Made by a program: the position numbers and the translations under genes. The notes under the pieces are model-generated. The model saw only the letters and a list, made by a program, of their open reading frames with translations, searched no databases and was not told the DNA's origin. This document shows, in pieces, positions 3,848 to 41,902 of a stretch of 64,000 nucleotides of DNA (within the stretch, counting starts at the first letter, position 1; every line of letters begins with the position of its first letter). This DNA is from Alphaproteobacteria bacterium (GTDB lineage: Bacteria > Pseudomonadota > Alphaproteobacteria > Micropepsales > Micropepsaceae): NCBI GenBank assembly GCA_013389115.1, contig JACADY010000011.1, positions 1-64,000 of the forward strand. Direction: 5' to 3'.

Positions 3848-4260
3848 ACCCAGGCGGCATGACGGTCCTGTCTAAGCAGTTAGTGACTAAAACCACCTAC
3901 CGGTTCCCCGTTTCGTCCTCTCCGGTGCGCCATTGCGTTCATTCTTACATGGAGCACTGCCGATGTTCTGGCCACGATTTGGCCAAGACCACAAACGTTG
4001 TTAACTGTTTGTCCGAGTTGGTCCAAATTCGCCGTTGTGCCTGCCTGAATGGAATGACGACATCTCGCCGGAAGCAGACACCAAACCGACACCCTGTTGA
4101 CCCGCACGAATGGGCAGTTACCCTGCCGTGAGGTTGCGGAAACCGGGAGCTATTCGATCATCTAATAGCGCTGAAAGGCTTCGCACAGCGCGCTGCCGCT
4201 CCGAACGGAAGCAGGCCACGTCCCCTGCGATACAAATCATTTCCAAGCTCCGAGGCCGTC

Positions 4261-4932
4261 ATGGACCTGCTCGATTTTGGTCTCAAGCCCTTGAGAGACC
4301 ATCTATCCGAAGCCGTCAAGGGTGAGGTGCGGCGAAGGGCCCAGAGACGACGCTTTGAAGATAAGCAGGCTTTGCACATGCGCGGAGATGACGAGGCGCG
4401 CCTGTGCATCGTCGCCAGCGGCATGGTTCGCTTCGGGCGGTTCCAGCACGACGGCTCGTTCAAACTGCTCGCTATGCTGGGGCCAGGCGCCCACTACGGC
4501 GATGTGGCCCTCCAACGCCATGCCTTCACGCAAAATGTCTACGCTCTCGGGCCAACCGAAATCGATGTGATCGACGCCGCCGCGCTGGAGATCTTGCTGC
4601 GTGATCAGCCTGAACTGGCCGTTGCCCTCTGGCGGTGCAACACGGCGCGCCTGAATGCGGTCCTGGAATTGTACGATGATGCAAGAACCCTGAACGTGAC
4701 AGCACGGCTGGCGAAAGTGATCTATGTCCATATGGGACGGGGCGAAGTGGCGAACGGCGTTGCTTGCCTTCAACGCGATCTCGCCGAACTACTCGGAGTT
4801 TCGAAGGTTGCCCTTGGAAACGCGATGCGCGATCTGGAGAGAGCAGGGCTCGTCCAATCGGGATATCGCCGCATCATCGTGCTCAACAAAGCCAAGCTAA
4901 AGTCTTGGCTTCGCACATCGGGATCAGCCTGA
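4261..4932 (+). CDS. Crp/Fnr family transcriptional regulator
   Basis: Cyclic-nucleotide-binding-like N-terminal domain plus C-terminal HTH (QRDLAELLGVSKVALGNAMRDLERAGLV). Confidence 0.8.
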   Translation: MDLLDFGLKPLRDHLSEAVKGEVRRRAQRRRFEDKQALHMRGDDEARLCIVASGMVRFGRFQHDGSFKLLAMLGPGAHYGDVALQRHAFTQNVYALGPTEIDVIDAAALEILLRDQPELAVALWRCNTARLNAVLELYDDARTLNVTARLAKVIYVHMGRGEVANGVACLQRDLAELLGVSKVALGNAMRDLERAGLVQSGYRRIIVLNKAKLKSWLRTSGSA

Positions 4933-5056
4933 CGCGCATCTGGCAAAAAAGCAAACTTCTTTGTCTTCTTCCCGGCGAGACGATGGCATGATGCGCTCAG
5001 AAAGAAAGCGTCACCGCGCGAAACGGCGGAGGTGACCGGACCCGGAGGAGCGCGCC

Positions 5057-6262: not shown

Positions 6263-6272
6263 GAGTGCGGGT

Positions 6273-7478: not shown

Positions 7479-7502
7479 GAGAAAGATTGCGGAGGAAGTA
7501 CC

Positions 7503-8471
7503 GTGAAAACCAGACTGACCGAACTGCTCGGCATTGAAGCGCCGATCATCTGTGGCGGCATGATGCGGGTGGGGACCGCTGACCTTGCAGCCGCTGTGTC
7601 CAATGCCGGCGGGCTTGGGGTCATGACTGCGCTGACGCAGAAAACACCTAAAGAGCTCCATGACGAAATTGAACGTTGCAGGACTCTTACGGACAAACCC
7701 TTCGCCGTGAATCTGACTGTTGGAGTCGTGGCGACCAAGATCGACTACGACGAATATGTCGAGGTGATCACGAGAAGCGGCGTCAAGATTGTCGAGACCG
7801 CCGGGCGCAGCCCTGAGCCTTTCATGGAGCGGTTCAAAGCCGCTGGCATCAAGGTGATCCACAAATGCGTCACTGTGCGCCACTCCCTGGCGGCTGAGCG
7901 GCTCGGCGTCGATGTGATCAGCATTGACGGCTTTGAGTGCGCCGGCCACCCGGGCGAACATGACGTTGGCGGGATTGTTCTGTTCCCCGCTGCGGCGCGC
8001 GCGCTCAAGATTCCAGTGGTCGCCTCAGGCGGCATCGCGGATGGCCGGGGTCTCGCCGCCGCGCTCGCGCTCGGCTGCGACGGCATCAATATGGGCACCC
8101 GCTTCATGGCGACGCAAGAAGCGCCTATCCACGACGGCATCAAGCAGAAGATTGTGGAGATGGACGAGAACCAGACCCAGATCATTTTCCGCAGCTATCG
8201 CAACACCGCGCGCGTCTACAAAAACTCGATTTCAAAGAAGGTCGCCGAGATCGAAGCCGCCGGCGGCGGTTTCGAACAAGTGCATGAGTATGTCTCCGGC
8301 ACTAATCAGGAAAAGGCCTGGACGACCGGCGACATCGAAGCCGGCATGGTGACGGCGGGCATGTCCGGCGCATTCGTGGAGGATGTGCCGACCTGCAAGG
8401 AGTTGGTGCAGAGGATTGTCGCGGACGCTGAGCAGATCATCAAGCAACGCCTGACGAATATGGTTGGCTAG
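7503..8471 (+). CDS. nitronate monooxygenase / 2-nitropropane dioxygenase-like flavoprotein
   Basis: APIICGGMMRVGTADLAAAVSNAGGLGVMTAL, GFECAGHPGE, VVASGGIADGRGLAAALALGCDGINMGTRF. Confidence 0.88.
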   Translation: MKTRLTELLGIEAPIICGGMMRVGTADLAAAVSNAGGLGVMTALTQKTPKELHDEIERCRTLTDKPFAVNLTVGVVATKIDYDEYVEVITRSGVKIVETAGRSPEPFMERFKAAGIKVIHKCVTVRHSLAAERLGVDVISIDGFECAGHPGEHDVGGIVLFPAAARALKIPVVASGGIADGRGLAAALALGCDGINMGTRFMATQEAPIHDGIKQKIVEMDENQTQIIFRSYRNTARVYKNSISKKVAEIEAAGGGFEQVHEYVSGTNQEKAWTTGDIEAGMVTAGMSGAFVEDVPTCKELVQRIVADAEQIIKQRLTNMVG

Positions 8472-8536
8472 GCCGGATAGCCTCGCAGCGTCGAGGATGC
8501 AACGGTTAGAGCACGCGTGTTGCTTGGAAGGGGAAT

Positions 8537-9487
8537 ATGATGAAAGGGACAGTCCGCCCGGTTGCGGCGATCGCACTCGCAGCCTCAGTATTGCTCTCGG
8601 GTTGCGAGGAACTCAGCCGAGCGTGGTACATTTCCCAGTACGAGCGCACGCTGGACACCTACGCCCAGATCGACACAACCGTGACAACGGTCACCAGCCG
8701 CACTGGCGCAGATGGGCGTGGTGCGGCGCTGATTTCGGCGTTCTTTGGGTTGGACAATGCCCTGCCGAAAGGTCCTACCGACCGAGTGGCCTGCGAGGGT
8801 GGCGGCGGCGCGGACGGTATGCCAGTGATCTTTTCGCATGAGGTCGACATCAAGACTCTAGAGCCCGGCGACTTCCGCATCACGACCGAGTCGGGGGCGA
8901 CTACTCGAGTCACCTGTCTGACGCTTGCACCTGCTGACGATCCGGGTGAACTGCGAACCGCATTGCTTGCCGGCGAGCTGGGCAGCGCCAAGGATCAGCC
9001 CTTGACGGTCGAAATCGTTGGGAATGTGTTGTCCTTGGACGGTACCCTGAATTTCAAAGGCGCAAGCGTCACTGCCACGCGGCTTGAGGCGGGTCCGACC
9101 CTCGTTTGGGCGGAAATTGTTCCTGAAGCGCAGTGGGAGCTTGGCAAAGAAGCAACCGTCTTGCCTTGGGGTGGCGGCGAACGCTGTCCGGTTGGCGCCG
9201 CGCAGGTTGTCCGTGTCACCTGGGGCGGCGGCGTCACCAAGCCTGATGGCCCCGACCCGGCCGACGACAACGAGCGCCGACTCTACAAGGTCTCAGTCGT
9301 GCGGATAGGAGGCGCGACAGCCGAGATCACGCCGTTTGCGCTCGCAGACCTTAATGACGGCGACAACAACCATCTGCTGTGTTTGGACACTACGGACGCG
9401 GTCACATCGGTTTCCTTCCCCGCTGGTTACTTGACCGACCCGCGGGAAGACCTGAACCCGGACACCACCATATCCGTGCAACAATAA
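8537..9487 (+). CDS. hypothetical lipoprotein
   Basis: Lipobox-like N-terminus AASVLLSGC; 316 aa; no family recognised. Confidence 0.6.
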   Translation: MMKGTVRPVAAIALAASVLLSGCEELSRAWYISQYERTLDTYAQIDTTVTTVTSRTGADGRGAALISAFFGLDNALPKGPTDRVACEGGGGADGMPVIFSHEVDIKTLEPGDFRITTESGATTRVTCLTLAPADDPGELRTALLAGELGSAKDQPLTVEIVGNVLSLDGTLNFKGASVTATRLEAGPTLVWAEIVPEAQWELGKEATVLPWGGGERCPVGAAQVVRVTWGGGVTKPDGPDPADDNERRLYKVSVVRIGGATAEITPFALADLNDGDNNHLLCLDTTDAVTSVSFPAGYLTDPREDLNPDTTISVQQ

Positions 9488-9509
9488 GCACTTGCTGAGG
9501 AGCCCACCC

Positions 9510-10151
9510 ATGACCCACATTGTCGACGTCTTCTGGTCCTTCCGGAGCCCTTATTCGTACTTCGCAACGCCAGACCTCCTTCGACTGCGCGAAGATTTTG
9601 AGGCGGAGGTCCGCTTCCGCCCCGTGCTTCCGATCGCCGTGCGCTCAAAGGAGTCGTTGTTCAAGGCGGATCAGAGGCCGGTCCGATATCTCATGCTGGA
9701 CATGGTTCGGCGCGCCGAGTTTCTCGGGATGAAGTTCGGCCGCCCCTCGCCTGATCCGATCGTCCAGGACATGGCGACGTTCGAGGTGGCTGCGGAGCAG
9801 CCATATATTTATCGCCTCACCGGTCTCGGCATTGAAGCCGAGCGCCGTGGCAAGGGCCTGGAGTTCGCCTTTCATGTGTCCCACCTGATCTGGGGCGGCG
9901 AACCCGGCTGGAACGAAGGCGACAAGCTCGCAAACGCGACGGCCAAGGCAGGCCTTGACCTTGCTGAAATGGACGCTGCGATCCTCGCGAACGATCCCAT
10001 GCCACACATCGAAGCTAACCATGCAGCCCTGGACGCCTCCGGTCACTGGGGCGTGCCGACCCTGGTGTTCAATGGCGAGCCCTTCTTTGGCCAGGATCGG
10101 ATCGAAACGCTGCGTTGGCGACTGGAGAAGTCAGGCGTGCCGAAGCGCTGA
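9510..10151 (+). CDS. 2-hydroxychromene-2-carboxylate isomerase / DsbA-family protein
   Basis: VDVFWSFRSPYSYFATPDLLRL N-terminus and WGVPTLVFNGEPFFGQDRIETL C-terminus. Confidence 0.8.
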   Translation: MTHIVDVFWSFRSPYSYFATPDLLRLREDFEAEVRFRPVLPIAVRSKESLFKADQRPVRYLMLDMVRRAEFLGMKFGRPSPDPIVQDMATFEVAAEQPYIYRLTGLGIEAERRGKGLEFAFHVSHLIWGGEPGWNEGDKLANATAKAGLDLAEMDAAILANDPMPHIEANHAALDASGHWGVPTLVFNGEPFFGQDRIETLRWRLEKSGVPKR

Positions 10152-10218
10152 AAAAGAAGAAATCCGCGCGGACTGGCTCGAATAAGTCTGTACACTGAAA
10201 TTCATTGGGAGGAGCAAA

Positions 10219-10830
10219 ATGCTAAAGCTTCACTTTGCGCCAAACTCTCGCGCCGGGCGAATCGTCTGGCTGCTGGAGGAATTGCAGTTGCCCTATGACA
10301 TCAACAAAATGTCGTTCCATCCGAAGGACCTTAAGTCCGACGAGCACCGCGCGCGCCATCCGCTCGGCCGGGTACCGGTGCTGGAGGACGGAGATGTGTC
10401 GATATTTGAGTCCGGCGCCATCGTTGACTACATCCTTGAGCGCCACAAGAATGGCGGACTGAAACCGGCCGTCAATGACCCGAGGTTTCCCGCCTATCTC
10501 CAATGGTTTCACTATTGCGAAGGCATGGTGATGCCGCCCGTGAACACGGTGGTGGTGCACACGATTCTCCTGCCTGAAGATCGGCGCGACGCGACGGTGC
10601 TCGGCCAAGCGCAGCGGCTGCTGACGAAAGCGCTCGAGCCCGTCGATGACGCCTTGGCCGGAAAAGACTACCTGATCGGCGACTTCTCAGGGGCTGACAT
10701 CATGCTCGGACACGCCTGCTTCATGGCGAACCGCATCGGCTCGGTCAGCGACGGGATGACGAACCTGAAGGCCTATGTGGCCCGCATCGCCGCCCGACCA
10801 GCCTTCCACAAGGCCATCACCTTGGCATAG
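10219..10830 (+). CDS. glutathione S-transferase
   Basis: LHFAPNSRAGRIVWLLEELQLPYD...PLGRVPVLEDGDVSIFESGAIVDYILE. Confidence 0.88.
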   Translation: MLKLHFAPNSRAGRIVWLLEELQLPYDINKMSFHPKDLKSDEHRARHPLGRVPVLEDGDVSIFESGAIVDYILERHKNGGLKPAVNDPRFPAYLQWFHYCEGMVMPPVNTVVVHTILLPEDRRDATVLGQAQRLLTKALEPVDDALAGKDYLIGDFSGADIMLGHACFMANRIGSVSDGMTNLKAYVARIAARPAFHKAITLA

Positions 10831-29399: not shown

Positions 29400-29439
<40 letters not shown>

Positions 29440-29498
29440 GCAGCGCTGGAGACGGAAGTGGCTAATAAGGTGGGGGTTTTCCGAACCCTGCCGACTTC

Positions 29499-29519
29499 GG
29501 GGTAACGCCCGGGGTAACG
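29499..29519. promoter_or_regulatory. candidate integrase arm-type sites (GGGGTAACG x2, left end)
   Basis: 29499..29507 and 29511..29519, 12-bp period; inverted copy CGTTACCCC at 29672..29680. Confidence 0.6.
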
Positions 29520-29534
29520 TTTCGGAAGAAGGCG

Positions 29535-29609
<75 letters not shown>

Positions 29610-29821
29610 TCCTCCCCCAGAAAATCAAGTGGTTAGGTGGACCGCTCGCCTCCGGCGAACCTGTAACCCTGCGTTACCCCAAGGGCGAGATGGCCCGACT
29701 CAGACGTTGCCAGCCGTCAACGGATCGTTTAGAACAATATGAGAACATTGCTTTCGTTGGTGACAGCGGCGGCTCGCCGCAATACACAACGAGTTGGCAG
29801 GATCGAAGGGGAGAGCGCTAC

Positions 29822-30781
29822 ATGTTGACCTCGGTGGAGCTTTGCGCGGGCGCGGGCGGTCAGGCGGTTGGACTGGAGCAGGCGGGCTTCGAGCACACCG
29901 CCCTTGTCGAGATTGACCCGCACTGCTGCACCACACTCCGGGCGAACCGGCCCAACTGGAACGTGATCGAAGATGACCTGCGCATCTTCAAAGAGCGCTC
30001 CGCATCGTTCGCCGGAATTGACCTTCTGGCCGGGGGTCTACCCTGCCCGCCGTTCTCGGTCGCGGGAAAGCAGCTCGGCGCTGCTGACGAGCGCAACCTG
30101 TTCCCGGACGCAATCGAGATCGTCGCCGCGACGAAGCCCCGGGCAGTCATGATCGAGAACGTCAGGGGCTTCCTTGACGCGGTTTTCCAAGACTACCGGG
30201 AGGACTTGAAGCGCCAGCTTGAGAAGCTCGGATACAAGACCGAGTGGCGGCTTCTGAACGCCTCGGACTACGGGGTGCCGCAGCTCCGGCCCCGGGTCGT
30301 GATCGTGGCCATTGAAAACTCTTCCACCGAACACTTCGACTGGCCCACGCCGCAGCCGCACAACCCGCCCACGGTCGGCGCGGTCCTCCGGGACCAGATG
30401 GCCGCCGGGGGCTGGCCTGGGGCCGATGCATGGGCCAAGCGAGCCGACGAGATCGCCCCGACCATCGTGGGCGGGTCGAAGAAGCATGGCGGCCCCGACC
30501 TCGGACCTACTCGGGCTCGGGCCGCGTGGGCCTCGCTCGGGGTCAACGGCAAGACCGTTGCCGACGAGCCTCCGGCGGCGGACTTCGTGGGGATGCCGCG
30601 CCTCACGGTCCCGATGGTCGCACGCATTCAGGGCTTCCCCGATGACTGGCGGTTCACGGGCCGCAAGACGGCTGCCTACCGGCAGGTTGGCAACGCCTTC
30701 CCACCGCCGGTCGCAAGGGCCGTAGGCGAGAACGTGCGCGCGGCTCTGACGGCCCGGCGCATCTTCGCCGTGCGCGCCTAA
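29822..30781 (+). CDS. DNA (cytosine-5)-methyltransferase
   Basis: LCAGAGGQAVGLEQAGF (motif I), GGLPCPPFSVAGKQ (PC motif IV), MIENVRGF (ENV motif VI), YRQVGNAFPPPVA (motif X-like). Confidence 0.93.
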   Translation: MLTSVELCAGAGGQAVGLEQAGFEHTALVEIDPHCCTTLRANRPNWNVIEDDLRIFKERSASFAGIDLLAGGLPCPPFSVAGKQLGAADERNLFPDAIEIVAATKPRAVMIENVRGFLDAVFQDYREDLKRQLEKLGYKTEWRLLNASDYGVPQLRPRVVIVAIENSSTEHFDWPTPQPHNPPTVGAVLRDQMAAGGWPGADAWAKRADEIAPTIVGGSKKHGGPDLGPTRARAAWASLGVNGKTVADEPPAADFVGMPRLTVPMVARIQGFPDDWRFTGRKTAAYRQVGNAFPPPVARAVGENVRAALTARRIFAVRA

Positions 30782-30843
30782 GCTCGACCACCCGCGCGGG
30801 CTGTGCAACAATCTCCACCAATTTCGGTGGAGAATCAGACCTA

Positions 30844-31722
30844 TTGCGCGCCAACCTTCCAGCAAGCCTCGTCGCCCCGGGCCACCCCGACTTCGCCGTG
30901 TCGTCGGCCATCCTTGCCGAACTCGACCAGCGGGCCGGGGGGCGGGGGAAGCTCGCCCAGGAAGTCCCGGCCCTTCTGCGCGAGGTCGTTGACGATGTGA
31001 TACAGACGCCGCGCACCGGGCGGCGGTCCTACGACGAGTTGGAGAAGACCGAGAAGACCTACATCGGCACCCGCGTCGAGATCATGCTCCGGGCTCTCCT
31101 GTCGCTGCCGCGCGGGCGGCTGGACGCGGTGGTGGCCGGACATGACACCGACATCAAGCACACGATGGGCAACAACTGGATGATCCCGGGGGAGGCGACA
31201 GACCACCCCTGCATCCTCGTGGCCGCCGATGAGGACCGGGCGCGCTGCTACCTCGGGCTGATCGTCGCCCGGCCCGAATACCTGACTGCCGGAGCCAACC
31301 GTGACGCCAAGCGGAGCATTTCAGCCGCCGGTTTCGCCCACATCCGCTGGATCTTCGCTGACCGCCCATACCCGCCGAACTTCTGGCGCACGATCCCGGC
31401 GGCGTCTGTCCAGAGGATCGTCTCGGGCCGAACCGGCAACGAGCGCGTCATGGCTCTGTTCCGGGAGGTGCAGGACGTGCCCATCACCCGCGAGACGGTT
31501 GAGGGCGTAGCCCGGCAGAAGGACTTCATGCGCCGCATCCGCGCTGACGGCGGGCGCGGGACGCGCGACCTCCTCGCGGCGGAGGGCATCCTGTTGCTGT
31601 CGGGGAAGTATGACGGCCCCCTGATCCGCGCACTCGGGCTTCCGATGGGCGACTTCGTGGCCCACACCCCGGCGGACGAAGGGGAGCGGCAGACCGCCCG
31701 CGCGGCGGGCTGGCGGGTGTAG
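30844..31722 (+). CDS. NaeI-like type II restriction endonuclease
   Basis: DELEKTEKTYIGTRVEIMLRALL...GRLDAVVAGHDTDIKHTMGNNWMIPGEA resembles the NaeI catalytic region (E...D...DxK); between m5C MTase and Vsr. Confidence 0.8.
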   Translation: MRANLPASLVAPGHPDFAVSSAILAELDQRAGGRGKLAQEVPALLREVVDDVIQTPRTGRRSYDELEKTEKTYIGTRVEIMLRALLSLPRGRLDAVVAGHDTDIKHTMGNNWMIPGEATDHPCILVAADEDRARCYLGLIVARPEYLTAGANRDAKRSISAAGFAHIRWIFADRPYPPNFWRTIPAASVQRIVSGRTGNERVMALFREVQDVPITRETVEGVARQKDFMRRIRADGGRGTRDLLAAEGILLLSGKYDGPLIRALGLPMGDFVAHTPADEGERQTARAAGWRV

Positions 31723-32162
31723 TGGCCGACAAGATCAGCCCGGAGCGCCGCAGCGCAAACATGCGGCAAATCCGCAGCCGCGACATGAAGCCCGAGATGG
31801 CGGTGCGCCGCCTAGCCCACGGCATGGGCTACCGATACCGCCTGCACCGCCGCGACCTGCCCGGCAAGCCGGACCTCGTGTTCGGGCCGCGCCGCGCCGT
31901 CATCTTCGTCCACGGGTGCTTCTGGCACCAGCACGACTGCCGGGACGGTCACAACCCGAAGTCCAACGGCGGCTACTGGGATGCGAAGCTGCGCCGGAAC
32001 GTGGAGCGGGATGCCGAGGTGCGCGCCCGCCTTGAGGCGGACGGCTGGCGGGTCCTCGTGATCTGGGAGTGTGAGGCCCGCGATGCCGAGGCGCTGCGGG
32101 CAACGCTGGCTGACTTCCTTGGGCCTGTCGCACCAATCCCCGCCCAATCAGCGCCCGATTGA
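31722..32162 (+). CDS. vsr: very short patch repair endonuclease
   Basis: RSANMRQIRSRDMKPEMAVRRL...GKPDLVFGPRRAVIFVHGCFWHQHDC; GTG start overlaps the upstream TAG by 1 bp. Confidence 0.95.
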   Translation: MADKISPERRSANMRQIRSRDMKPEMAVRRLAHGMGYRYRLHRRDLPGKPDLVFGPRRAVIFVHGCFWHQHDCRDGHNPKSNGGYWDAKLRRNVERDAEVRARLEADGWRVLVIWECEARDAEALRATLADFLGPVAPIPAQSAPD

Positions 32163-32241
32163 CGCGACTGACTGCGGGCGCGCGGCGTGAGACTTCTCCA
32201 ACCACCGGCCAGCGGGGCCGGATGGAAAAGGAGAATGGAAG

Positions 32242-32430
32242 TTGGCAAAATCATCGGAATGGGACGAACGAGTCAGCGCGGCTCTTGCCGAGCTTGAGCA
32301 CTGGCGCTCACTGCCCAAGGGCGAACATCGGCGGGAGTCCCTTGAGAAGCTGGCTGCGGCCTACCCGGACGTGATCACGGTAGAATGGTTGCCGGACAAC
32401 CGGGTGATCATCACGGAATGCCTCGGCTGA
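32242..32430 (+). CDS. small hypothetical protein
   Basis: 62 aa MAKSSEWDERVSAALAELEHWRSLPKGEHRRESLEKLAAAYPDVITVEWLPDNRVIITECLG; purine-rich upstream sequence; same strand as vsr. Confidence 0.5.
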   Translation: MAKSSEWDERVSAALAELEHWRSLPKGEHRRESLEKLAAAYPDVITVEWLPDNRVIITECLG

Positions 32431-32477
32431 AACCCCGCGCCGCCCGGCGCGGTGCCGGGCGGTGCTTCAATCAATGA

Positions 32478-32831
32478 TTGGAGATGACGATGAATGTTGA
32501 ACAGAAATCGGAAGACCTCCTGCCGGAGAAAGCGCCGTCGCTCGCTGAGATCGTCGGCGCGGCGGAGACGCTGGCGGCGGCACGGCGGCTGCTCAGGGGG
32601 ACCGGCTGGGCTCGGCTGGAGGAGCGCCGGGGTCGGAAACGCGTGGTGGTTCACCCCCCCTACATCGTCCCGAGGGAGCGCGCGCTGCTGAGCGACGATG
32701 TGGCGGAGAAGATTCACCACGCGGCTAAGGTCTTGACGTGGGCCGCCAACCACTCGCTGCCCTTCGTGACCTTGGACATTCCGACCAACCATCTGGGGCT
32801 CTCGCTGACCATCAACTTCGACGGGTGCTGA
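32478..32831 (+). CDS. hypothetical protein
   Basis: 117-aa ORF, no competing ORF in its own frame, followed by a terminator. Confidence 0.5.
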   Translation: MEMTMNVEQKSEDLLPEKAPSLAEIVGAAETLAAARRLLRGTGWARLEERRGRKRVVVHPPYIVPRERALLSDDVAEKIHHAAKVLTWAANHSLPFVTLDIPTNHLGLSLTINFDGC

Positions 32832-32844
32832 CCCACCCGCAAAG

Positions 32845-32879
32845 GGGCCGCGCGGGTGACGCCTGCGCGGCCCTGTTTT
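32845..32879 (+). terminator. Rho-independent terminator between convergent island modules
   Basis: GGGCCGCGC-gggtgacgcct-GCGCGGCCC followed by tgtttt. Confidence 0.75.
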
Positions 32880-32932
32880 CATTGATCGTCGGCGGGGCGG
32901 TGCCGCCACCCGGCATCCGGTCGGTTCCGGGG

Positions 32933-33292
32933 TCAGTGCATGACCGGGCGGGGCAGCCAGAGGTCGCGGCTGAACAGGCACCAGCCCAGCGCGACCTGCA
33001 CGGCGCGGTCGTGCTGGCGGATCAGGTGGGGCGTGGCCCGCTCCGGGTCGCGGATCGCGTCCACCCACGCATCGCGGGTGGTCCCCGGGTAGCGGCGGCA
33101 GAGGAGCCCAACGAGCCCCCCGAGCCGGGCACGGGGGACGCGGTAGAGCCGGGCGAACTGCGCGACCATGGCGGGCGTGGGCCAGCCGTCCGGGCTCGCC
33201 TCCTCCGCGTAGGCCACCAGCGCGAGGTGCGCCTTGCGCAGCCGCGACGGGAACAGCCGCACGTAGGCCTCGGTGAGGCGCTCGGGCGTCAT
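32933..33292 (-). CDS. hypothetical protein
   Basis: MTPERLTEAYVRLFPSRLRKAHLALVAYAEEASPDGW...; ATGA overlap with the upstream ORF stop. Confidence 0.55.
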   Translation of the reverse strand: MTPERLTEAYVRLFPSRLRKAHLALVAYAEEASPDGWPTPAMVAQFARLYRVPRARLGGLVGLLCRRYPGTTRDAWVDAIRDPERATPHLIRQHDRAVQVALGWCLFSRDLWLPRPVMH

Positions 33293-33549
33293 GCGCCGCG
33301 CCCCGGGCCGGTGTAGGTGGCCCCGAGGGCATCGCCCTGGAACACGCACGGCGCGAAGCCGCCCGCCGCCGTGGCCGCGACCTGCGTGGTGTCGAAGCCG
33401 TCGAAGGGCGCGTTCATGTGCGGCACGAGGGCGTTGGCGGCGGTGATCGCCGCCGGGGCGCTGGCCGCGTCCACGAGGGCGGCGTGGGTGCCCGAGGGGT
33501 TCTTGAGGTGTTCAGCGCCCCGGGGGCGGGTGACGAGGTAGAGGGGCAT
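33289..33549 (-). CDS. small hypothetical protein
   Basis: 86 aa MPLYLVTRPRGAEHLKNPSGTHAALVDAASAPAAITAANALV...; ATGA-coupled. Confidence 0.5.
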   Translation of the reverse strand: MPLYLVTRPRGAEHLKNPSGTHAALVDAASAPAAITAANALVPHMNAPFDGFDTTQVAATAAGGFAPCVFQGDALGATYTGPGRGA

Positions 33550-33550
33550 G

Positions 33551-34270
33551 TCAGTTGGTCTCCTTTGAGTTGAGGGCTACTTTGACCTTGTCGAGCGCGG
33601 AGGCGCGCCCGCGTTCGAAGTCACGGTTGGCGACGATTGCGCGCTGGACCGTCGCCCGAACGCGCTCGATGGTGCGCGTCACTTCCGCCGCCTCCTCGCC
33701 CACGAGGCGCTGCGCCAGCTCCTGAGCAGAGAAGGGGCGGTCGCGGGCGGGCATCCGGTCGATGATCGTCAGCAGCGCGGCCCCGAGGGGGGCGTTCTTG
33801 GTGGCGACGGCGAACGCCGCCATGTTGCGGAGCTGGACCACGCCCGAGCCCTCAAGCTGCGCGAGGTAGTTGGTGCGTTCCGGCGTCCCGAGCCCGGCGC
33901 GAGCGAGCACCGCCTGCGGCGTGGCGAACAGCAGGGCGGTCGTGGAGAGGGAGTCAGCCGCCGCCTGCAACTCACGGAGCATCGCCCAGCGGGTGTCGGA
34001 GCTGTTAGGGAGAACTTCGGCCCGGGCCTTGGCCTCCGCCTTGCGCCCGGCCTCGGCCTGCGCCTCGGGCGGAAAGTCGGCCCGGGCGAGGCTCTCGGCT
34101 GCCTCGCGGCCCCGGGCGGCGATGCCGCTGGCGAGGGTGTCGAGCGTCTTGCCGAACTTCTCGGCGCGGCGGGCGACGGCTTCCGCGAGGCTGATGACCT
34201 CGCCCCGCGCCATGGGCGGGGCGGTGAGAGCGGGCAGCTCGGTTCCGGGGGACTGCGCGGGTTCGGGCAT
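33551..34270 (-). CDS. hypothetical protein
   Basis: Start MPEPAQSPGTELPALTAPPMARGEVISLAEAVARRAEKFGKTLD...; palindrome upstream. Confidence 0.5.
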   Translation of the reverse strand: MPEPAQSPGTELPALTAPPMARGEVISLAEAVARRAEKFGKTLDTLASGIAARGREAAESLARADFPPEAQAEAGRKAEAKARAEVLPNSSDTRWAMLRELQAAADSLSTTALLFATPQAVLARAGLGTPERTNYLAQLEGSGVVQLRNMAAFAVATKNAPLGAALLTIIDRMPARDRPFSAQELAQRLVGEEAAEVTRTIERVRATVQRAIVANRDFERGRASALDKVKVALNSKETN

Positions 34271-34377
34271 CGGGGGCTCCTGTCTTGAGTTTGCCGCCGT
34301 GCCGGAGCGCCTTGCTCTCGTCCGCGCCCATCCGTTGGGCGGCATGTTGACCTGAGCGACAGGATAGCCGATGCTGG

Positions 34378-34393
34378 TGGTATCAAGATACCA
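34378..34393. promoter_or_regulatory. operator-like palindrome TGGTATC-AA-GATACCA
   Basis: 7-bp perfect arms located upstream of the 34270 start. Confidence 0.45.
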
Positions 34394-34415
34394 CACAGCG
34401 TTGAGAACTGGCCTG

Positions 34416-34691
34416 TCAGAACCAGCCCCAGAGCGGGTCTCCGGCTTTGTTCGGCGCAGGGCGCGCGGCCTTGGCCGAGCGCTCGGGCAGGTGTGCCTCC
34501 GGGTCCTCCGCCGTCATGCCGAGGGCCATACCGACCACGACAGCCGGGGCGCAGGTCACGAGCGCGGTCACGGGCCGGGACAGGCCCGGAGGAGTCCAGC
34601 CCTCGCGGACGTAGGCGTCGTAGCCCATCCGGGAGAGGAGCCCCGCCGCGTTCGCGTAGGCTTCCTCGCGGGTCTCCGCCACCGCCCGCAC
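34416..34691 (-). CDS. hypothetical protein
   Basis: 91 aa, adjacent to the next gene in the minus-strand operon. Confidence 0.45.
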   Translation of the reverse strand: MRAVAETREEAYANAAGLLSRMGYDAYVREGWTPPGLSRPVTALVTCAPAVVVGMALGMTAEDPEAHLPERSAKAARPAPNKAGDPLWGWF

Positions 34692-34692
34692 G

Positions 34693-35214
34693 TCAGTCGC
34701 CCCGCCGCGCCTCGGGGTCCAGCGGGACGTGTTCCAGCACGTCCGGTTCCGGCTGGCCGGGGATGCTGCCGCCCGCCGCGCGGCGCTCCGACAGGAACTC
34801 GTCCATCGTCATCTTGGGCGGCAGGAGGACGACGCCCCCGGTCTTGACGCTGACGTTGAGCTCGGGAGCTTCGCCCTCGCGGTAGCCGTGCCGAGCCTTG
34901 AGGAGGAACAGGTTGGCGACCACGTTCCCCTCGTCCGCGACCCGGCGCAGGTTGCCCACCAGCACATCGTGCTCGCGGGCGAGGCCCCTCTGGTAAGCCT
35001 CCTCCACGGCGGGGTCGCGCCGCCGCACCTCGCGGAGCGTCGTCCCGTGCATCCCGAGGACGCGGGCGACGGTGGCGAGGTGGCAGCCCCGGCCCACCAG
35101 TTCTTCGATGATCGCCAGCCCCCGGGGGGTGATCTCCCAGTACGTGCGCCCCTGCCCGCCCGGGCCGGGCGCCACGAGGCGCGCGGGCAGTTCGTCGTCG
35201 GTGTCGTCGGTCAT
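34693..35214 (-). CDS. HTH protein, possibly phage terminase small-subunit-like
   Basis: ATVARVLGMHGTTLREVRRRDPAVEEAYQRGLAREH...FLLKARHGYREG...MTMDEFLSERRAA; ATGA overlap with the recombinase stop. Confidence 0.5.
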   Translation of the reverse strand: MTDDTDDELPARLVAPGPGGQGRTYWEITPRGLAIIEELVGRGCHLATVARVLGMHGTTLREVRRRDPAVEEAYQRGLAREHDVLVGNLRRVADEGNVVANLFLLKARHGYREGEAPELNVSVKTGGVVLLPPKMTMDEFLSERRAAGGSIPGQPEPDVLEHVPLDPEARRGD

Positions 35215-35822
35215 GTTGCCTCAAGCTCCTTCTGCTCGGCGTCCCACTGCTGGCACACCCGGAAGCTCAGCGACTTCCCGATGCGCAGTTCCTTGGCGAT
35301 GCGGTCCATGCCCACGCCCCGGGCGCGCAGGGCGCGGATGGACTGGACCAGCGTGTCGGAGGCCGGGGGCCTTCCGATGCGCTTGCCGCTCGCCCGCGCC
35401 CGGGCCATCCCGGCCCTCGTGCGCTCAACGATCATCGCTCGCTCAAACTCGGCGAAGACGCCCGACATCTGCAACAGCGCCCGGCCTGCCGGGGTGGACG
35501 TGTCCAGCGCCTGCTGCTCAAGGTAGAGGTCGCACCCGACCGTGCGCAGCGTCTCGAACAGGTCCACGAGGTCGCGGAGCGAGCGCCCGAGGCGCGACAC
35601 GTCCCAAGCCATCACCACGTCGAAGCGGCGGCGCTGGGCGTCGGCAATCATCGCGTCCAGCCCGGGGCGGCGCGAGGTCGCGCCGCTGGCCGTCTCGACG
35701 TACTCGCGGGCGACGGTCCAGCCCGCCCGAGCGGCCACCTCCCGGAGCCGGAGAAGCTGGTTCTCCGGCGTCTGCTCCCCGGTGCTGACCCGGGCGTAGA
35801 TCGCGGCGCGGCGGGCGGTCAT
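35211..35822 (-). CDS. serine recombinase (resolvase/invertase family)
   Basis: AAIYARVSTGEQTPENQLLRL (catalytic Ser), WDVSRLGRSLRDLV, FAEFERAMIVERTRAGMARARASGKRIGRP. Confidence 0.93.
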   Translation of the reverse strand: MTARRAAIYARVSTGEQTPENQLLRLREVAARAGWTVAREYVETASGATSRRPGLDAMIADAQRRRFDVVMAWDVSRLGRSLRDLVDLFETLRTVGCDLYLEQQALDTSTPAGRALLQMSGVFAEFERAMIVERTRAGMARARASGKRIGRPPASDTLVQSIRALRARGVGMDRIAKELRIGKSLSFRVCQQWDAEQKELEAT

Positions 35823-36100
35823 GCCGCCACCTCGTCGTTGGCGAGCCCGTAGTGGTCGCGGGTCCAGCGGGCCGCGCCGTCGAAGGCCATGTAGTCTTCG
35901 CGGAGGATGTCGTGCGCCGCGCCGCCCCGGCACAGCAGCGCCGCCACGACGCCACGCCCGTTGTGAACGTAGACGCGCACGGTGCCCTCGCGGGCGAGCG
36001 CGGCGGCGACGTTCTGCGCGACCAGTTGGAGGTTCACCGGGGTCGCGGTGTCGATGATGCTGTGATCGGCGGCGCGGTGGAACGAGTAGGTGGTGGTCAT
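35819..36100 (-). CDS. hypothetical protein
   Basis: MTTTYSFHRAADHSIIDTATPVNLQLVAQNVAAALAREGTVRVYVHNGRG...; ATGA overlap with the recombinase start. Confidence 0.55.
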   Translation of the reverse strand: MTTTYSFHRAADHSIIDTATPVNLQLVAQNVAAALAREGTVRVYVHNGRGVVAALLCRGGAAHDILREDYMAFDGAARWTRDHYGLANDEVAA

Positions 36101-36132
36101 GTCGGTTCTCCATTTCTCAGTGTGCCGGGCGC

Positions 36133-36147
36133 GCAACCTAGGGTTGC
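36133..36147. promoter_or_regulatory. operator-like palindrome GCAACC-TAG-GGTTGC
   Basis: Located just upstream of the ATGA-coupled operon starting at 36100. Confidence 0.4.
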
Positions 36148-36293
36148 ACCCCGAGATGGAACATAGCGTGAACGGGCGGCTCCGGCTAGTCTGAAAACGG
36201 ACGGTTCCGGTGTGGGCAGGACCGGCGGGCGAAGGCCCAAGAAACGTTGGGCCTGCCGCCCTCGGGCGGGGATGGGGTTTCGGGGTGGCGGTG

Positions 36294-36809
36294 TCAGCGC
36301 CTCGGGTTCGCGTCGGGATCGCACCCGTAGCGGCGGCGGGTGGCTTCCTCCGGCCCGTGGCGCAGGGCATCGCGCGCGGCTTCCATCAGCCGGATCGTGG
36401 CCCGGTCGTCGTCGCCGCGCCAGCCGCCCGCCGCCTCCCAAGTGTCGTATGCGCGTCCCCAAACTGGGTCTGGGTCGGCAGCGCTCCCTTCGTAGAGCTG
36501 CCAGATGGCATCGAAGGTCCAGCGGGGCATGAGGATGCCGAACGACGCGAGCGTGGCGTCCGCCCGCTCCCAGATGGTGTCCGGGGCGTCCATCCATTCC
36601 CAGTGGTAGATGTCGTTGTCGCGTCCGTCATCGTAGAGCATCGCGGCGCGAAGGTCGAATATCGCTGCCCAGAGAGGGTGGTATCCGTCCGGGGCGCGGC
36701 GCAGGTTGCGCCGTGGGCTCAGGTAGAGCCGGGCGTAGACCGGAGCGAGGATGCGCAACCACGAGGCAAACGACAGACCCCCGTTCCGGGTCACGGCATC
36801 AGCTTCCAT
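36294..36809 (-). CDS. hypothetical protein
   Basis: MEADAVTRNGGLSFASWLRILAPVYARLYLSPRRNL... start within ORF 36294..36875. Confidence 0.5.
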   Translation of the reverse strand: MEADAVTRNGGLSFASWLRILAPVYARLYLSPRRNLRRAPDGYHPLWAAIFDLRAAMLYDDGRDNDIYHWEWMDAPDTIWERADATLASFGILMPRWTFDAIWQLYEGSAADPDPVWGRAYDTWEAAGGWRGDDDRATIRLMEAARDALRHGPEEATRRRYGCDPDANPRR

Positions 36810-37120
36810 CTGCCATCTCCTTTTTGCTGCGGCGCAGAACGTGTGTTGCGATGGTTTTCCAGCCCCGAACCACACAGGGGGGAGTTGGGGGAGTTAGAGG
36901 GAGTCTATACCCGTAAGAACCCCCACGTTTTTCCCAAGAAGGACATGTGGTTAGGGGGTCTTCGGGGTCTTCTTCCCCCCTCTCGGAAAACGAGCGAGAA
37001 ATCCAAGAGTAAAGCGTAAATCCCCGTAAACGGGCTACCCGCGCTTACCGGCATAGACAGCTCGAAAAACCGCGCTGTTTTCTCCGGGCCGGAGAGACCC
37101 CCCAAGACCCCGAACTCCCC

Positions 37121-39607
37121 CTACGGCGGCACCGCCTCAAGGCAGAAGGTCGAAGCGTCCTTGTCGTCGGCCCGCCGCACGATCCGCCGCCCGCGCACGA
37201 TCCGGCCCACCTTCTTGCTCAGGTAGATGCCGACCGAATGCGGGTTCACGCCGCGCGGGCAGGCGGCGCGGAGGGCGATGCCCAGTTCCTCAGCCCCCGG
37301 CCCCCCGCTGCCCTGAAACGTGTCACTTCGCCGGATGAGTTCCGCCGCCTTGACGTAGCGCCCGACACCGAAGGCGGCTTCCCAAGCCTCGATCAGTCCC
37401 GCCAGTTCCTCGCGGGCGGAGTCACCGACCGAGACGCTCGCCCGGGTCGCGCAAGGGTCGGGCTCGCCGCACCAGACCAGTGCGGCGCGCACGAGGGCCG
37501 ACCAGTCCTCGAACCGTCCGAAGGGCTCAAGTTCGCGCGCCCCCGGCCTGCCCGCAAAGATGAAGGCGCGCAGCACCGTCAGCGCCGCCGCTACCAGTTC
37601 GCCGCGCCGCCTCCGAACCTCGGTCCGAAGGTCAACCGTGAAGGTCCGCTTCTCGGGGTGTTCCATCTTCGCATCCATCGCGCACATGATGGCGCGCGTT
37701 GACATGTCCTCGCGGAACTGGAGGTTGTTCCCGTTGGCGATGAACAGGGTCTGCGTCGGGACGCGGATTTGGTCGTTGGTGCCCAGCTTCCGGTTCTGCC
37801 ACGTCTCCGAGGTCAGGATCGAACACAGTGCGTCGCCGGTCACGGGCCGGGTCACGTTGTCGATCACCACCACGGGGTCGCCCTGCATCAGGATCGACAG
37901 CAGCCGCTTCTCGTCCTCCTCCTCGGTCGCGCCCTGCGACATGACGGGCGCGTCCCGGCCCGTGCCGAGGATCGCCACCACGTCCGCGATCAGCGACTTG
38001 CCGGTGCCCATCGTCGGGGCCGTGAAACCGTGCAGGGGCGCGGTGCGCAGCATCTTCCGGCAGACCGCCGTCAGCATCGCGGAGAGCGCCACCGACCGCG
38101 ACGGAACGTCAACGAACGGGAAGCCTTCGAGCAGTTCCTTCAAGAGGCCCATCGCCGCTACCGCATCGGCCCGAGAGGGACTCTCCGGCACGGTGCCGAA
38201 GGTCGCGCCGCCGGTGTCGAGGATAAGGCCGGAAGCCGCATCGTAGCCATCGTCGGCCAGCACGGTTCCGTCCGGTCGCAGCGTCGGACACTCGACCACC
38301 CCCCGCAGCACCGGGAGCCGCCAGAAGCCTTCGCGCGCGGCATAGCTGTGGGCGAAGGAGACGGGCGGCGCGGTCGGCACGGTGTCCGTGCCCTGCTTCG
38401 TCGTCACGATCTTCACGAAGTTCGCGCTTCCGATCATCAGCTCCCGCAGCCGGTGCGGCCGCAGTTCGCGGATCAGCAGCGCCCCGGCTTCGCGGAGGAC
38501 GCCGTCGTCGTTCCCGGATGCGTCCAGCCGGATCGGCTGCACCAGTCGCCCCGCGCTCTGGTAGATCGGAACTCCCGCCGTCAACAGTGCGGCCTCGGCA
38601 GCGTCCAGCGTCTCGGGAAGGCGGTTCTCCGAGTAGACAACCTCGGGCCGGTCGTCCGCCCGCCCCTCGGTGATGCCCAGCCACTTGCGGAAGCGCCCAG
38701 CCACCGCTTCGGGCAGCCCCAGCATCTCGACCCCCCGGGGAAGCCCCGTCGCGGCCTCGCCCGCCTCCACCTTCGCGGCGGTCTGCCCGGCCTTGCCGCG
38801 CTTGCCCGCCTCCTCGTCGCCCGCGATTTCTGCGGCCAGCACCACCGCGTGGTTGACATCCTCCACCGAGAGCTTCGCCGCCAGCAGCGCGCCCGAGAGC
38901 GCCATGCAGAAGTCGTCGCGCGAGCCCTGCGCCGGGTAAAACCGCGCCACCACCGACAGGAACGCGATCAGGCCCGCCCGCTTGAGGGCGTCCGCCGCGC
39001 TCATCGAGAGGGGGGCAACGTCCCGCTCCCAAGAAACCTGCTCGCCACTCGGGTGGACCGAGGGCGGGGCCATCGTGTGGCCCTTCCCCCGGACCTCAAG
39101 GACGCAGGCGGCGTGTTCCTCGGGGAGGCCCTCGGTGCCCTTCAACTCGGGGATGTCGAACTTGACGGTCTTGTCGAAGCCGGGGCAGAGGAACAGGTAG
39201 TGCGACCCCGGCGCGCCCGCGCGCCCGAACTTGGGCAGTGCGAACAGCAGCTTCGCCCCGATGCGCCGCGCCTCCGGCCAGTCAAGGTCGAAGTCCACTA
39301 GCCCGCCGTGTTCCGGCCCGAGCCGGAGCCCGAGGTTGTAGCCCCCGTGGTCCAGCAGCCGCTCCGCGTTCTCGGCGGTGACAGTGTTCGCGTCGTGCTT
39401 GCCGGGCGGCACCTTGGCCCTCGGTCCCAGCCGGATCGGCGTCCAGCCCCGGGCGAGGTATCCGCGCGCGGCTTCTATCAACGCCTCGCGCTTGGTCGGG
39501 GAGGCGTTCTCGGCTATACTCGCCCCATCAGGGTGATGATGATGCCTGTCTTCCGCGCCCCCGGCCCGATTCCCAGCGCCGGGGGCGTCCTCTTTGAAGT
39601 CACTCAT
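37121..39607 (-). CDS. bifunctional primase-polymerase / helicase-like ATPase
   Basis: N-terminal prim-pol-like region (GWTPIRLGPRAKVPPGKHD, LVDFDLDWPEARRIG, GSHYLFLC) and Walker A APTMGTGKSLIADVVA in the C-terminal half. Confidence 0.8.
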   Translation of the reverse strand: MSDFKEDAPGAGNRAGGAEDRHHHHPDGASIAENASPTKREALIEAARGYLARGWTPIRLGPRAKVPPGKHDANTVTAENAERLLDHGGYNLGLRLGPEHGGLVDFDLDWPEARRIGAKLLFALPKFGRAGAPGSHYLFLCPGFDKTVKFDIPELKGTEGLPEEHAACVLEVRGKGHTMAPPSVHPSGEQVSWERDVAPLSMSAADALKRAGLIAFLSVVARFYPAQGSRDDFCMALSGALLAAKLSVEDVNHAVVLAAEIAGDEEAGKRGKAGQTAAKVEAGEAATGLPRGVEMLGLPEAVAGRFRKWLGITEGRADDRPEVVYSENRLPETLDAAEAALLTAGVPIYQSAGRLVQPIRLDASGNDDGVLREAGALLIRELRPHRLRELMIGSANFVKIVTTKQGTDTVPTAPPVSFAHSYAAREGFWRLPVLRGVVECPTLRPDGTVLADDGYDAASGLILDTGGATFGTVPESPSRADAVAAMGLLKELLEGFPFVDVPSRSVALSAMLTAVCRKMLRTAPLHGFTAPTMGTGKSLIADVVAILGTGRDAPVMSQGATEEEDEKRLLSILMQGDPVVVIDNVTRPVTGDALCSILTSETWQNRKLGTNDQIRVPTQTLFIANGNNLQFREDMSTRAIMCAMDAKMEHPEKRTFTVDLRTEVRRRRGELVAAALTVLRAFIFAGRPGARELEPFGRFEDWSALVRAALVWCGEPDPCATRASVSVGDSAREELAGLIEAWEAAFGVGRYVKAAELIRRSDTFQGSGGPGAEELGIALRAACPRGVNPHSVGIYLSKKVGRIVRGRRIVRRADDKDASTFCLEAVPP

Positions 39608-39795
39608 CCCGCCGCCCTCGCCTCCGCGCGGGCCGCGACCCACTCCCCGACCTCGCGCTCAAGCCACGCCACCTTGTTGGCGCAGAGGCGGAGTTGGCGG
39701 GGGAAGTCCCCCTGCCGGATCAGCTTGTAGATGGTGGGCTTGGAGAGGCGGGTACGAACTGCAACCTCCTCTATCGTCAGCAGTGTGTCGGCCAT
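39604..39795 (-). CDS. AlpA-family excisionase/regulator
   Basis: MADTLLTIEEVAVRTRLSKPTIYKLIRQGDFPRQLRLCANKVAWLEREVGEWVAARAEARAAG. Confidence 0.92.
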   Translation of the reverse strand: MADTLLTIEEVAVRTRLSKPTIYKLIRQGDFPRQLRLCANKVAWLEREVGEWVAARAEARAAG

Positions 39796-39895
39796 CGGTT
39801 TATCCCCGGATATGTCGCTATCTGGGGAGAGACTAGCGGGGCCTTGCCGCCGGGGCCGTTTCACCGATTTCTGGCGAAAACCGGCGAAACCGCCG

Positions 39896-40528
39896 CTACG
39901 GCTTCTTTCTTGGCTTGCGGAGGCGCGACGCCCTGAGCTTCTCATCGTGACCGCGCAGGCTCGTGTCCACCATCCTGAGCACGTCCTTGTGCGTCGGAGA
40001 CGCGGAGGCGTTCGGCGTGGCGTTGCGCACCGCGAGAGCTTTCGGCGGCAACGAGCGCTCAAGCAGCTCTGCGATGAACATCTGCATCGGGTATGGTGGG
40101 AGGTCCTTGGCGGAGTTCTTGCTGCCCCGGTAGGTGTTGCCCTTCTGGTAGATGTTGCCCCGGTCTAGAACCCAGATGCGGGCCGCGACGGTGACGGCGT
40201 GGTCGAACCCGGCGTCGCGCGGCAACTTCCTGAGATCAGGCTCGGCCAAATGCGCCGCGTTTCTCGCGGCCCGCGCTATGTCGATGTCATCGGGCTCGAC
40301 ATCTGGACCGAGGCCACGCGCGATTTCGAGTGCCACGGCTTCGCGGTCGGCGGGCCGCATCGCCTCCCACAACTTGGCCAGCTTGAGCAGGCTCTTGCAC
40401 TCGGGCATCATTCTCGAACGCTCGACCAGTTCCTCTAGGCCAGCGGGGGTGCTCTCGTGGTGGCTGTCGTAGGCTGCCCGGACGCGCGCCACCTCGGCAT
40501 CGGTGATCTGCTCCCACGTCACTTCCAT
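39896..40528 (-). CDS. hypothetical protein encoded beside the integrase
   Basis: Start MEVTWEQITDAEVARVRAAYDSHHESTPAGLEELVERSRMM...; overlaps the 3' end of the integrase gene. Confidence 0.55.
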   Translation of the reverse strand: MEVTWEQITDAEVARVRAAYDSHHESTPAGLEELVERSRMMPECKSLLKLAKLWEAMRPADREAVALEIARGLGPDVEPDDIDIARAARNAAHLAEPDLRKLPRDAGFDHAVTVAARIWVLDRGNIYQKGNTYRGSKNSAKDLPPYPMQMFIAELLERSLPPKALAVRNATPNASASPTHKDVLRMVDTSLRGHDEKLRASRLRKPRKKP

Positions 40529-41694
40529 TGTGCGCCCCACAGGTCCAGCGCTGCGCGCTTCTCGGTCAGGTAGCTGTAGCGGTTGTAGGTGCCCGCGACG
40601 CCCGGAACCTCGTGGCCTAGGACGCGCTCGATGTGTTCCTGCTGGACCCCGAGCCGGGCCATGTGAGTCGCGGCGGAGCGGCGCAGGTCGTGCAGCGTCC
40701 AGTCCTCCACCTTGGACAGCCGGTCGAGCCGGGCCTTGGCCTTCGAGAAGCCCGAAACTGGCCGCTTGCCGCCGGTCGTGGACAGCATGAAGTCGCCCCC
40801 GTTCCACTTGGGCAGGGCCTCCACCAGCGCAAGCGCCGGGGCCGACAAGGGGACGACCTGCGGGCGGTCTGTCTTGTAGTGGCGGGCGGGGACCTCGAAC
40901 GCATTCTGGTCGGGCAGCAGCCAGCCGCGCTCTAGGTTGGCCACCTCCGCGCGGCGCTGCGCCGTAAGGATCAGCAGACGCACCATCGGCCCGAACGGGT
41001 AGCCCATGTCGCCCGCCGCCGCCCAGACAGCCTTGAGCTCGTCCATCGACAGCACCCGCTCGCGGGGCCGGTATCGCAGGTCCTTCCGCTGCATCCCGGC
41101 GACGGGGCTGGCGATGAGGTATCCCCGGTTGACGCACCAGTTGAACAGCGTCGTGACGTGCTTGCGCACCTCGCGCGCCTGCCCCGCGCCGTGCTCGGCC
41201 TTCACGTCATCCAGCAGCTCGTGGACCGACGCCCTGTCCAGCACGTCGATCTGCCGCCCGCGCCACTCCGGGACCACCAGCGCGTTCAGGAGCCGCTCGG
41301 TGTCGCGCCACTTGACGGTGCTGGCCTTCGCGTGGGCTTCCACGAACCGCCCGCAGATCGCCTCGAACGTCCGCTCGCCCTTCGCCCGGAGGTCGTCCTT
41401 CCTGACCTCCGCCGGGTCGTCGCCACGGTCGGCGGTGTCCAGCGCGTCGCGCGCCCGGTCCCTCGCGGCCTTGAGGTCGAGCAATGGGTAGGCCCCGAGG
41501 GTCATCCGGCGGAGCGGCCCCCGGTTCCCGCCGTCACCCCGGCCCGCCACGCGGTAGTGCACCGACCAGCTCTTCTTGCCGCCCTCGGTGATGCGCAGGG
41601 TCAGGCCCTGACAGCCTTCGTCGGACACTTCCAGCCGCCGCCCGGCTGCGGGCTTCAGTTTCTGCACGGCTATCTCGGTCAGTCTGGACTTCAC
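40519..41694 (-). CDS. int: tyrosine-type integrase with DUF4102 N-terminal domain
   Basis: LTEIAVQKLKPAAGRRLEVSDEGCQGLTLRITEGGKKSW..., LLILTAQRRAEVANLE, TLHDLRRSAATHMARLGV, RVLGHEVPGVAGTYNRYSY. Confidence 0.95.
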   Translation of the reverse strand: MKSRLTEIAVQKLKPAAGRRLEVSDEGCQGLTLRITEGGKKSWSVHYRVAGRGDGGNRGPLRRMTLGAYPLLDLKAARDRARDALDTADRGDDPAEVRKDDLRAKGERTFEAICGRFVEAHAKASTVKWRDTERLLNALVVPEWRGRQIDVLDRASVHELLDDVKAEHGAGQAREVRKHVTTLFNWCVNRGYLIASPVAGMQRKDLRYRPRERVLSMDELKAVWAAAGDMGYPFGPMVRLLILTAQRRAEVANLERGWLLPDQNAFEVPARHYKTDRPQVVPLSAPALALVEALPKWNGGDFMLSTTGGKRPVSGFSKAKARLDRLSKVEDWTLHDLRRSAATHMARLGVQQEHIERVLGHEVPGVAGTYNRYSYLTEKRAALDLWGAQWK

Positions 41695-41705
41695 GGGGCA
41701 CCTCC

Positions 41706-41725
41706 GGGGTAACGAGGGGGTAACG
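41706..41725. promoter_or_regulatory. candidate integrase arm-type sites (GGGGTAACG x2, right end)
   Basis: 41706..41714 and 41717..41725; inverted CGTTACCC at 41808..41815. Confidence 0.6.
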
Positions 41726-41854
41726 GGATGTGGGGCTATTGGGCTTAACGGGCCTATACTCCCAGAGCCCTATATAGCGCCCAAGTGCCTGCGATTAAAG
41801 TGGTTTCCGTTACCCGCAGAGACGACCAAAGACGGGCCTAGACTGGCGGCCCGG

Positions 41855-41902
41855 CCCTTGGTAAGGGAGAGGTCGACAGTTCAATCCTGTCCGGCAGCAC
41901 CA
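41855..41902 (+). pseudogene. 3' half of host tRNA-Thr(GGT), displaced (attR)
   Basis: CCCTTGGTAAGGGAGAGGTCGACAGTTCAATCCTGTCCGGCAGCACCA; pairs with 29400..29439. Confidence 0.93.

Follow-up and report, generated by a model that had tools for sequence, protein, structure and literature searches.

The window analyzed here is a stretch of 64,000 nucleotides at the start of contig JACADY010000011.1 (assembly GCA_013389115.1) from an alphaproteobacterium of the Micropepsaceae. It contains a complete integrative element of 12.4 kb (positions ~29428–41876), with halves of the host tRNA-Thr(GGT) gene on both sides and a G+C content of 69.1%, compared with 61–62% in the flanks. The backbone genes follow the order int, o212, AlpA, prim-pol/helicase, o193, serine recombinase, HTH173, o91, o281, o86, o138 and lie in a minus-strand block at 32933–41694, from the tyrosine integrase through short conserved ORFs. 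An earlier annotation made from the sequence alone (the sequence-only reading) had treated this block as the module. The block does hold the backbone genes, but the element is larger (29428–41876) and includes methyltransferase, NaeI and Vsr cargo genes at 29822–32162.

Gene content of the element

The functions proposed from sequence alone for the integrase, AlpA, prim-pol/helicase and serine recombinase were all supported by Pfam matches. The tyrosine integrase (40519–41694; PF00589 and PF13356) is accompanied by o212 (39896–40534), which has homologs in the elements L024 (35% identity) and L254 (72%) and goes with the Thr-GGT integrase. An AlpA-type regulator/excisionase follows (39604–39846; PF05930, 1.5e-12), and then the prim-pol/helicase replication protein (37121–39643), which matches PF09250 (3.5e-12) and, in its C-terminal half, phrog_29234 (1.4e-122). 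Next come o193 (36294–36875), common to the island and L024 only, a small ORF (35819–36115) with only a weak phrog_11514 match, and a small serine recombinase (35211–35822; PF00239, 5e-46) that overlaps the start of HTH173 (34693–35214) and adjoins the corresponding gene in most related elements. The block is completed by the conserved small protein o91 (34416–34691), whose slot is variable among elements, the family marker gene o281 (33551–34270, or to 34396 in a longer ORF version; predicted fold all-helical), the conserved small protein o86 (33289–33549), and o138 (32933–33349), the final gene of the conserved module, which has matches in 15/15 of the loci L243–L257. When the island was compared with L024, dN was lower than dS for 11/11 backbone ORFs, indicating that the short ORFs without an assigned function are real genes.

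The variable cargo slot, on the forward strand, is filled by a NaeI-type restriction-modification (RM) system. It consists of a C5 cytosine DNA methyltransferase (29822–30781; PF00145, 7e-72), a NaeI-type restriction endonuclease (30844–31722; PF09126, 2e-57) and a Vsr mismatch endonuclease (31722–32162; PF03852, 1e-30); the copies of the first two in element L244 are 80% and 83% identical, respectively. Two small forward-strand ORFs on the cargo side (32242–32430 and 32478–32831) had neither a family match nor a relative in other elements.

Searches against Pfam, PHROGs and NCBIfam found no capsid, portal, tail, large terminase or conjugation genes in the window, in agreement with what the sequence-only reading had stated for the block. 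We extended this analysis to 74 non-core ORFs of related elements, which were called by a simple script, so that some small genes may have escaped it or be miscalled. No relaxase or conjugation match to Pfam was found in the window or in these 74 ORFs, and no lysis match was present among the matches listed for either set. Portal, capsid and tail genes were likewise not recognized in the 74 ORFs (Pfam, and the 25 commonest PHROG families among the matches listed).

A split tRNA gene and its replacement

The ends of the element show an unusual arrangement, with all the following features on the forward strand. A displaced 5' half of the host tRNA-Thr(GGT) gene (29400–29440) spans the left junction at ~29428 and contains the attL core CCCTTGGTAAGGG (29428–29440). 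It begins 135 bp ahead of a complete, element-borne tRNA-Thr(GGT) gene (29535–29609), and two candidate integrase arm sites GGGGTAAC lie between them (29499–29518). Two further candidate copies of GGGGTAAC are found beside int (41706–41724), and the displaced 3' half of the host gene (41855–41902) forms the right junction, attR. The tRNA-Thr(GGT) core is repeated exactly over 22 nt at 29562 and 41855.

The acceptor stem of the displaced 5' half (GCTGCCG) pairs with the distant 3' half (CGGCAGC); the stem of the complete gene is a different one (GCTGTGG/TCACAGC). Most element-free related genomes have an intact tRNA-Thr(GGT) beginning with GCTGCCG; in one of the same genus (G001), the intact gene is followed by homologs of argD, ALDH and terC, the genes of the right flank of the window. 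The pairing of the displaced halves, together with these intact genes, indicates a split of the host gene at its anticodon, with a whole replacement brought in by the element. The assembly yielded no intact tRNA-Thr(GGT) apart from this replacement (a search with its 43-nt start, allowing ≤3 mismatches, gave one match); the remaining Thr tRNAs found there are TGT and CGT.

The layout is not specific to the window. L024 has the same one, with a sole tRNA-Thr(GGT) match and its own 5' and 3' halves; it also conserves the candidate arm sites, as L244 and L254 do in part. In total, ten elements in three tRNA types have a 5' half followed, at a distance of 135–146 bp, by a complete tRNA gene, and in these ten the host gene is split at the anticodon. 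Members of the family located in Asn-GTT and Thr-TGT genes show ordinary 3'-half restoration instead. Our initial reading of the window, a conventional att model with a single 3' half, was dropped given the 5' half and the arm repeats.

According to Islander (PMC4383910), the usual rule is that the tRNA gene is restored by a fragment carried on the island. The window element shares with these tRNA-targeting islands a tyrosine integrase, a tRNA gene that is split yet functional and an anticodon-centered crossover (PMC4383910); it differs in carrying a complete second gene and leaving both host halves displaced. Since fragment restoration is the usual rule (PMC4383910) and suits the Asn-GTT and Thr-TGT members, one could suppose that tRNA-Thr was restored in the ordinary way from a 3' fragment and that a nested or tandem double integration left a spare 5' half. 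This seems very improbable, given that the 5' half keeps its distance of 135–146 bp in all ten elements, that conserved element-specific repeats lie between it and the complete gene, and that its stem in the window pairs with the far 3' half and differs from the stem of the complete gene.

A family of related elements with a terminase-like protein

The sequence-only reading had suggested looking in alphaproteobacteria for islands of the same gene order in tRNA-Thr, and one was found: L024, from the Rhodobacteraceae MAG AG16, is likewise complete and keeps the gene order of the window element (identities of 35%–82%); its cargo is another RM system, one with a NotI-type enzyme. A profile search with o281 gave matches in 16/397 genomes of Rhodobacteraceae, namely that of L024 and 15 others (loci L243–L257). 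The order serine recombinase-HTH173-o91-o281-o86-o138 is common to the loci, contigs permitting, with o91 or o86 absent in some; many loci are fragments of draft assemblies, and absences refer to the sequence present. Integrase, primase, tRNA site and cargo are swapped among members. Thus L254 shares its integrase (79%), o212 (72%) and AlpA (94%) with the window but not the prim-pol, while with L246 the genes in common include o138 (87%) and o86 (85%). Of note, an apparent deletion in L246 (10498–10797) joins the start of its HTH173 homolog to the end of o91, so that the former is probably broken. The tRNA sites used are Thr-GGT, Arg-TCT, Arg-CCT, Asn-GTT and Thr-TGT; the cargo includes NaeI, NotI, type ISP, Eco57I-like and BsaWI-like systems as well as IrrE-type proteins; and mapped att-to-att lengths are ~11.3–14.3 kb. 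More distant members were detected in another alphaproteobacterial family (L283) and in the same family as the window genome (L284). A search of the host family with o212 matched the window alone, and viral contigs scanned with single-protein or two-sequence queries for HTH173, o281 and the integrase gave no match. Two other candidate markers were rejected: the prim-pol, as most members use a DUF5906/RepB-type primase, and the serine recombinase, as such recombinases occur in 52/61 genomes.

The genome of the window itself encodes a second member, L282 (contig C64:33500–53400), which occupies tRNA-Arg(TCT) and whose cargo comprises a glycosyltransferase and a DNA methyltransferase. Here too a 5' half and arm-like repeats accompany a complete tRNA; no other TCT tRNA is listed. 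Blocks of L282 are 93–98% identical at the DNA level to L243 from another genome, a single 17.9-kb contig for which a binning error is possible, and nothing matches past the int-side end. Blocks of 95–98% identity in two genomes whose flanks differ, and two members in one genome, point to recent movement.

In all probability, HTH173 is a small terminase (TerS), as the sequence-only reading had suspected ("possibly small terminase-like"). All 14 members of its alignment match PHROG 309 (terminase small subunit; best 2.5e-15), and the window protein by itself gives a weak match (3e-4). Its predicted fold has Sf6 TerS as the best solved-structure match (probability 0.90, E 0.17, supportive only), and its matches among viral models include annotated TerS proteins. 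Stronger support comes from synteny with the large terminase (TerL). In prophage L273, a member of the HTH173 family (PHROG 309, 8e-18) directly precedes TerL, portal and capsid genes. L272, in tRNA-Thr(GGT), reads int-201 aa-VapE primase-TerS-91 aa-TerL without capsid genes, and in L249 and L283, TerL lies within the o281/TerS module.

The sequence-only reading had named large terminase, structural or conjugation genes in homologous elements as findings that would speak against a satellite. TerL is indeed present in three relatives (L249, L272 and L283), but no portal, capsid or tail genes were seen in the stretch read of each. Rather than clear prophages, they therefore appear to be satellites that carry more of the packaging machinery. 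As judged from the sequences, TerL is optional in the family, the window element carrying TerS only, and some members may be less helper-dependent. Decay of a prophage that lost its structural genes would be another route to such a gene set, and prophage relatives of TerS and of the replication proteins are known. We regard it as most unlikely here because independent decay would not yield one conserved set: the same genes recur in the same order across many genomes, their ORFs are intact with dN < dS, and the att ends are clean.

For the protein o281, neither Pfam nor PHROGs gave a match, the phage collection contained no relative, and no fold match was recognizable. The fold of P4 Sid or Psu was considered and rejected, as both were absent from the fold search results, and a weak profile match to a lysozyme chain was discarded, as no stretch passes alone. 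Together, o281 and TerS provide a concrete marker set for an alphaproteobacterial satellite family with exchangeable restriction-system cargo.

Other contexts of the TerS and prim-pol families were also observed. In L052 (11801–13945), downstream of a prim-pol/helicase relative, a ParB-domain DNA methyltransferase lies between two TerS-family proteins, near which TerL was not detected; in L274, a TerS-family protein adjoins a similar methyltransferase. L025 and L026 are small islands in which int is joined only by a small HTH gene and a full-length relative of the prim-pol (41%); TerS and o281 were not detected in them.

A proposed PICI-like satellite

We propose, with a probability of about three in four, that the island is a phage satellite of a new, PICI-like variety that depends on a helper. 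It would work like a PICI and represent a new variant, and we do not file it as a PICI. The proposal rests on the recurrence of the module in 16/397 genomes, under purifying selection and within a narrow size range; on the exchange of integrase, primase, tRNA site and cargo between elements; on the TerS assignment (PHROG 309, fold and TerL synteny, once in a prophage with portal and capsid); on the 74 non-core ORFs without a portal, capsid, tail or relaxase match; and on the presence of two members in one genome with signs of recent movement. The satellite-like character seen by the sequence-only reading is thus strengthened by a module that recurs in many genomes without structural genes.

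The anatomy of the locus suggests that the element enters the host tRNA-Thr(GGT) gene at its anticodon, through the tyrosine integrase, and itself supplies the complete replacement. By analogy with PICIs, growth of a helper phage would trigger the cycle via AlpA-type control, and the excised circle would be replicated by the prim-pol/helicase, as its domains suggest. TerS would then steer the large terminase of the helper so that the element enters helper capsids. Since o91, o281, o86 and o138 accompany TerS, and in some relatives also TerL, a role for them in packaging or in the takeover of capsids is probable. Multimer resolution by the serine recombinase is a guess, and the cargo slot would be the route by which the RM system reaches the host.

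It is also conceivable that the element integrates and replicates but is not packaged by design, the TerS-like protein being a DNA-binding regulator only; movement would then occur by generalized transduction, vesicles or transformation, as for tycheposon-type or plasmid-like islands. Plasmids do carry prim-pol/helicase relatives, small int-HTH-primpol islands exist (L025 and L026), and L052 has two TerS-family proteins around a methyltransferase and no TerL detected there. We nevertheless consider this unlikely, as TerS keeps its position beside o281 in all fuller members, TerL occupies that slot in L249, L272 and L283, and the narrow sizes of 11–14 kb suit a packaging limit.

The known satellites offer several points of comparison. 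PICIs are recognized by a conserved organization with integrase, replication module and master regulator, a size of typically ~12–15 kb, att sites that are never prophage-occupied, genes orthologous to known PICI genes, and a helper phage that induces and packages them and with which they interfere (PMC6092414). The island has int, AlpA and prim-pol in order, as kept in its relatives, and measures 12.4 kb (relatives 11.3–14.3 kb). It has no structural genes as a prophage would, no relaxase or conjugation genes as in integrative mobilizable or conjugative elements, no TerL, portal or capsid genes of its own as in capsid-forming PICIs, and no Pfam or PHROG match to the Psu, Sid or delta of P4-like elements. 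By its organization, size, lack of structural genes and TerS, the island therefore agrees with those sequence criteria for Gram-negative PICIs that could be checked (PMC6092414). It shares with Gram-negative PICIs the integrase, AlpA-type regulator, replication module, absence of structural genes and exchangeable cargo, and the window copy also has the TerS without TerL and the 12–15 kb size (PMC6092414). It differs from PICIs in the host class, the conserved serine recombinase-TerS-o91-o281-o86-o138 module, the whole replacement tRNA gene and the TerL of some relatives; the likeness described here concerns organization and content. P4-like satellites share the integrase, AlpA, primase-helicase and ~11–12 kb size (PMC8628076), as well as an anti-phage cargo hotspot, described for P4 (PMC9122126); however, the island has no Psu, Sid or delta match, and its TerS is not among the listed P4 core components (PMC8628076).

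The sequence-only reading did not recognize the gene set as a described satellite family. In the open-access papers searched, none fits either, and the elements likely form a family of small mobile elements new to the literature. We lean slightly towards the fuller view that this is a new alphaproteobacterial satellite family with a serine recombinase-TerS-(TerL)-o91-o281-o86-o138 packaging module that is hard to lose, two of whose members coexist here and replace tRNA-Thr(GGT) and tRNA-Arg(TCT). If the only tRNA gene of the host is cut and a whole replacement supplied, a host that lost the satellite imprecisely would be deprived of a tRNA it needs; whole-tRNA replacement makes a testable prediction on element stability. 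The phage satellites studied in detail are mainly those of enterobacteria, vibrios and Gram-positive cocci. The proteins o281, o86 and o138 are candidates for new modes of takeover of phage capsids or packaging motors.

No helper prophage was identified in the genome of the window in a search for one terminase family (Terminase_6N). Its sole match lies in a cluster on contig C28 (L210, ~1–10400) whose terminase, head-tail and tail genes, identified by eye, resemble a gene transfer agent (GTA). A GTA is unlikely to be the packager given the small capacity of RcGTA heads, which hold only ~4 kb.

Finally, ~60 loci with a related prim-pol/helicase (mostly ~40% identical) carry TerL, and many also encode portal and capsid proteins. 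They look like a separate kind of 16–22 kb, comparable to capsid-forming PICI-like elements, with TerS, TerL, portal, capsid and RM genes; the window element and its family differ from these in having no portal, no capsid and, for most, no TerL. In the type represented by L040, L051, L083 and L034, int and prim-pol/helicase are accompanied by a Nu1-like TerS, a GpA-type TerL, a slot with RM or other cargo, portal and protease-capsid genes; no tail genes were noticed when these four were read by eye, and they may be capsid-forming satellites. Alphaproteobacterial elements of this type often sit on viral contigs of 16–22 kb.
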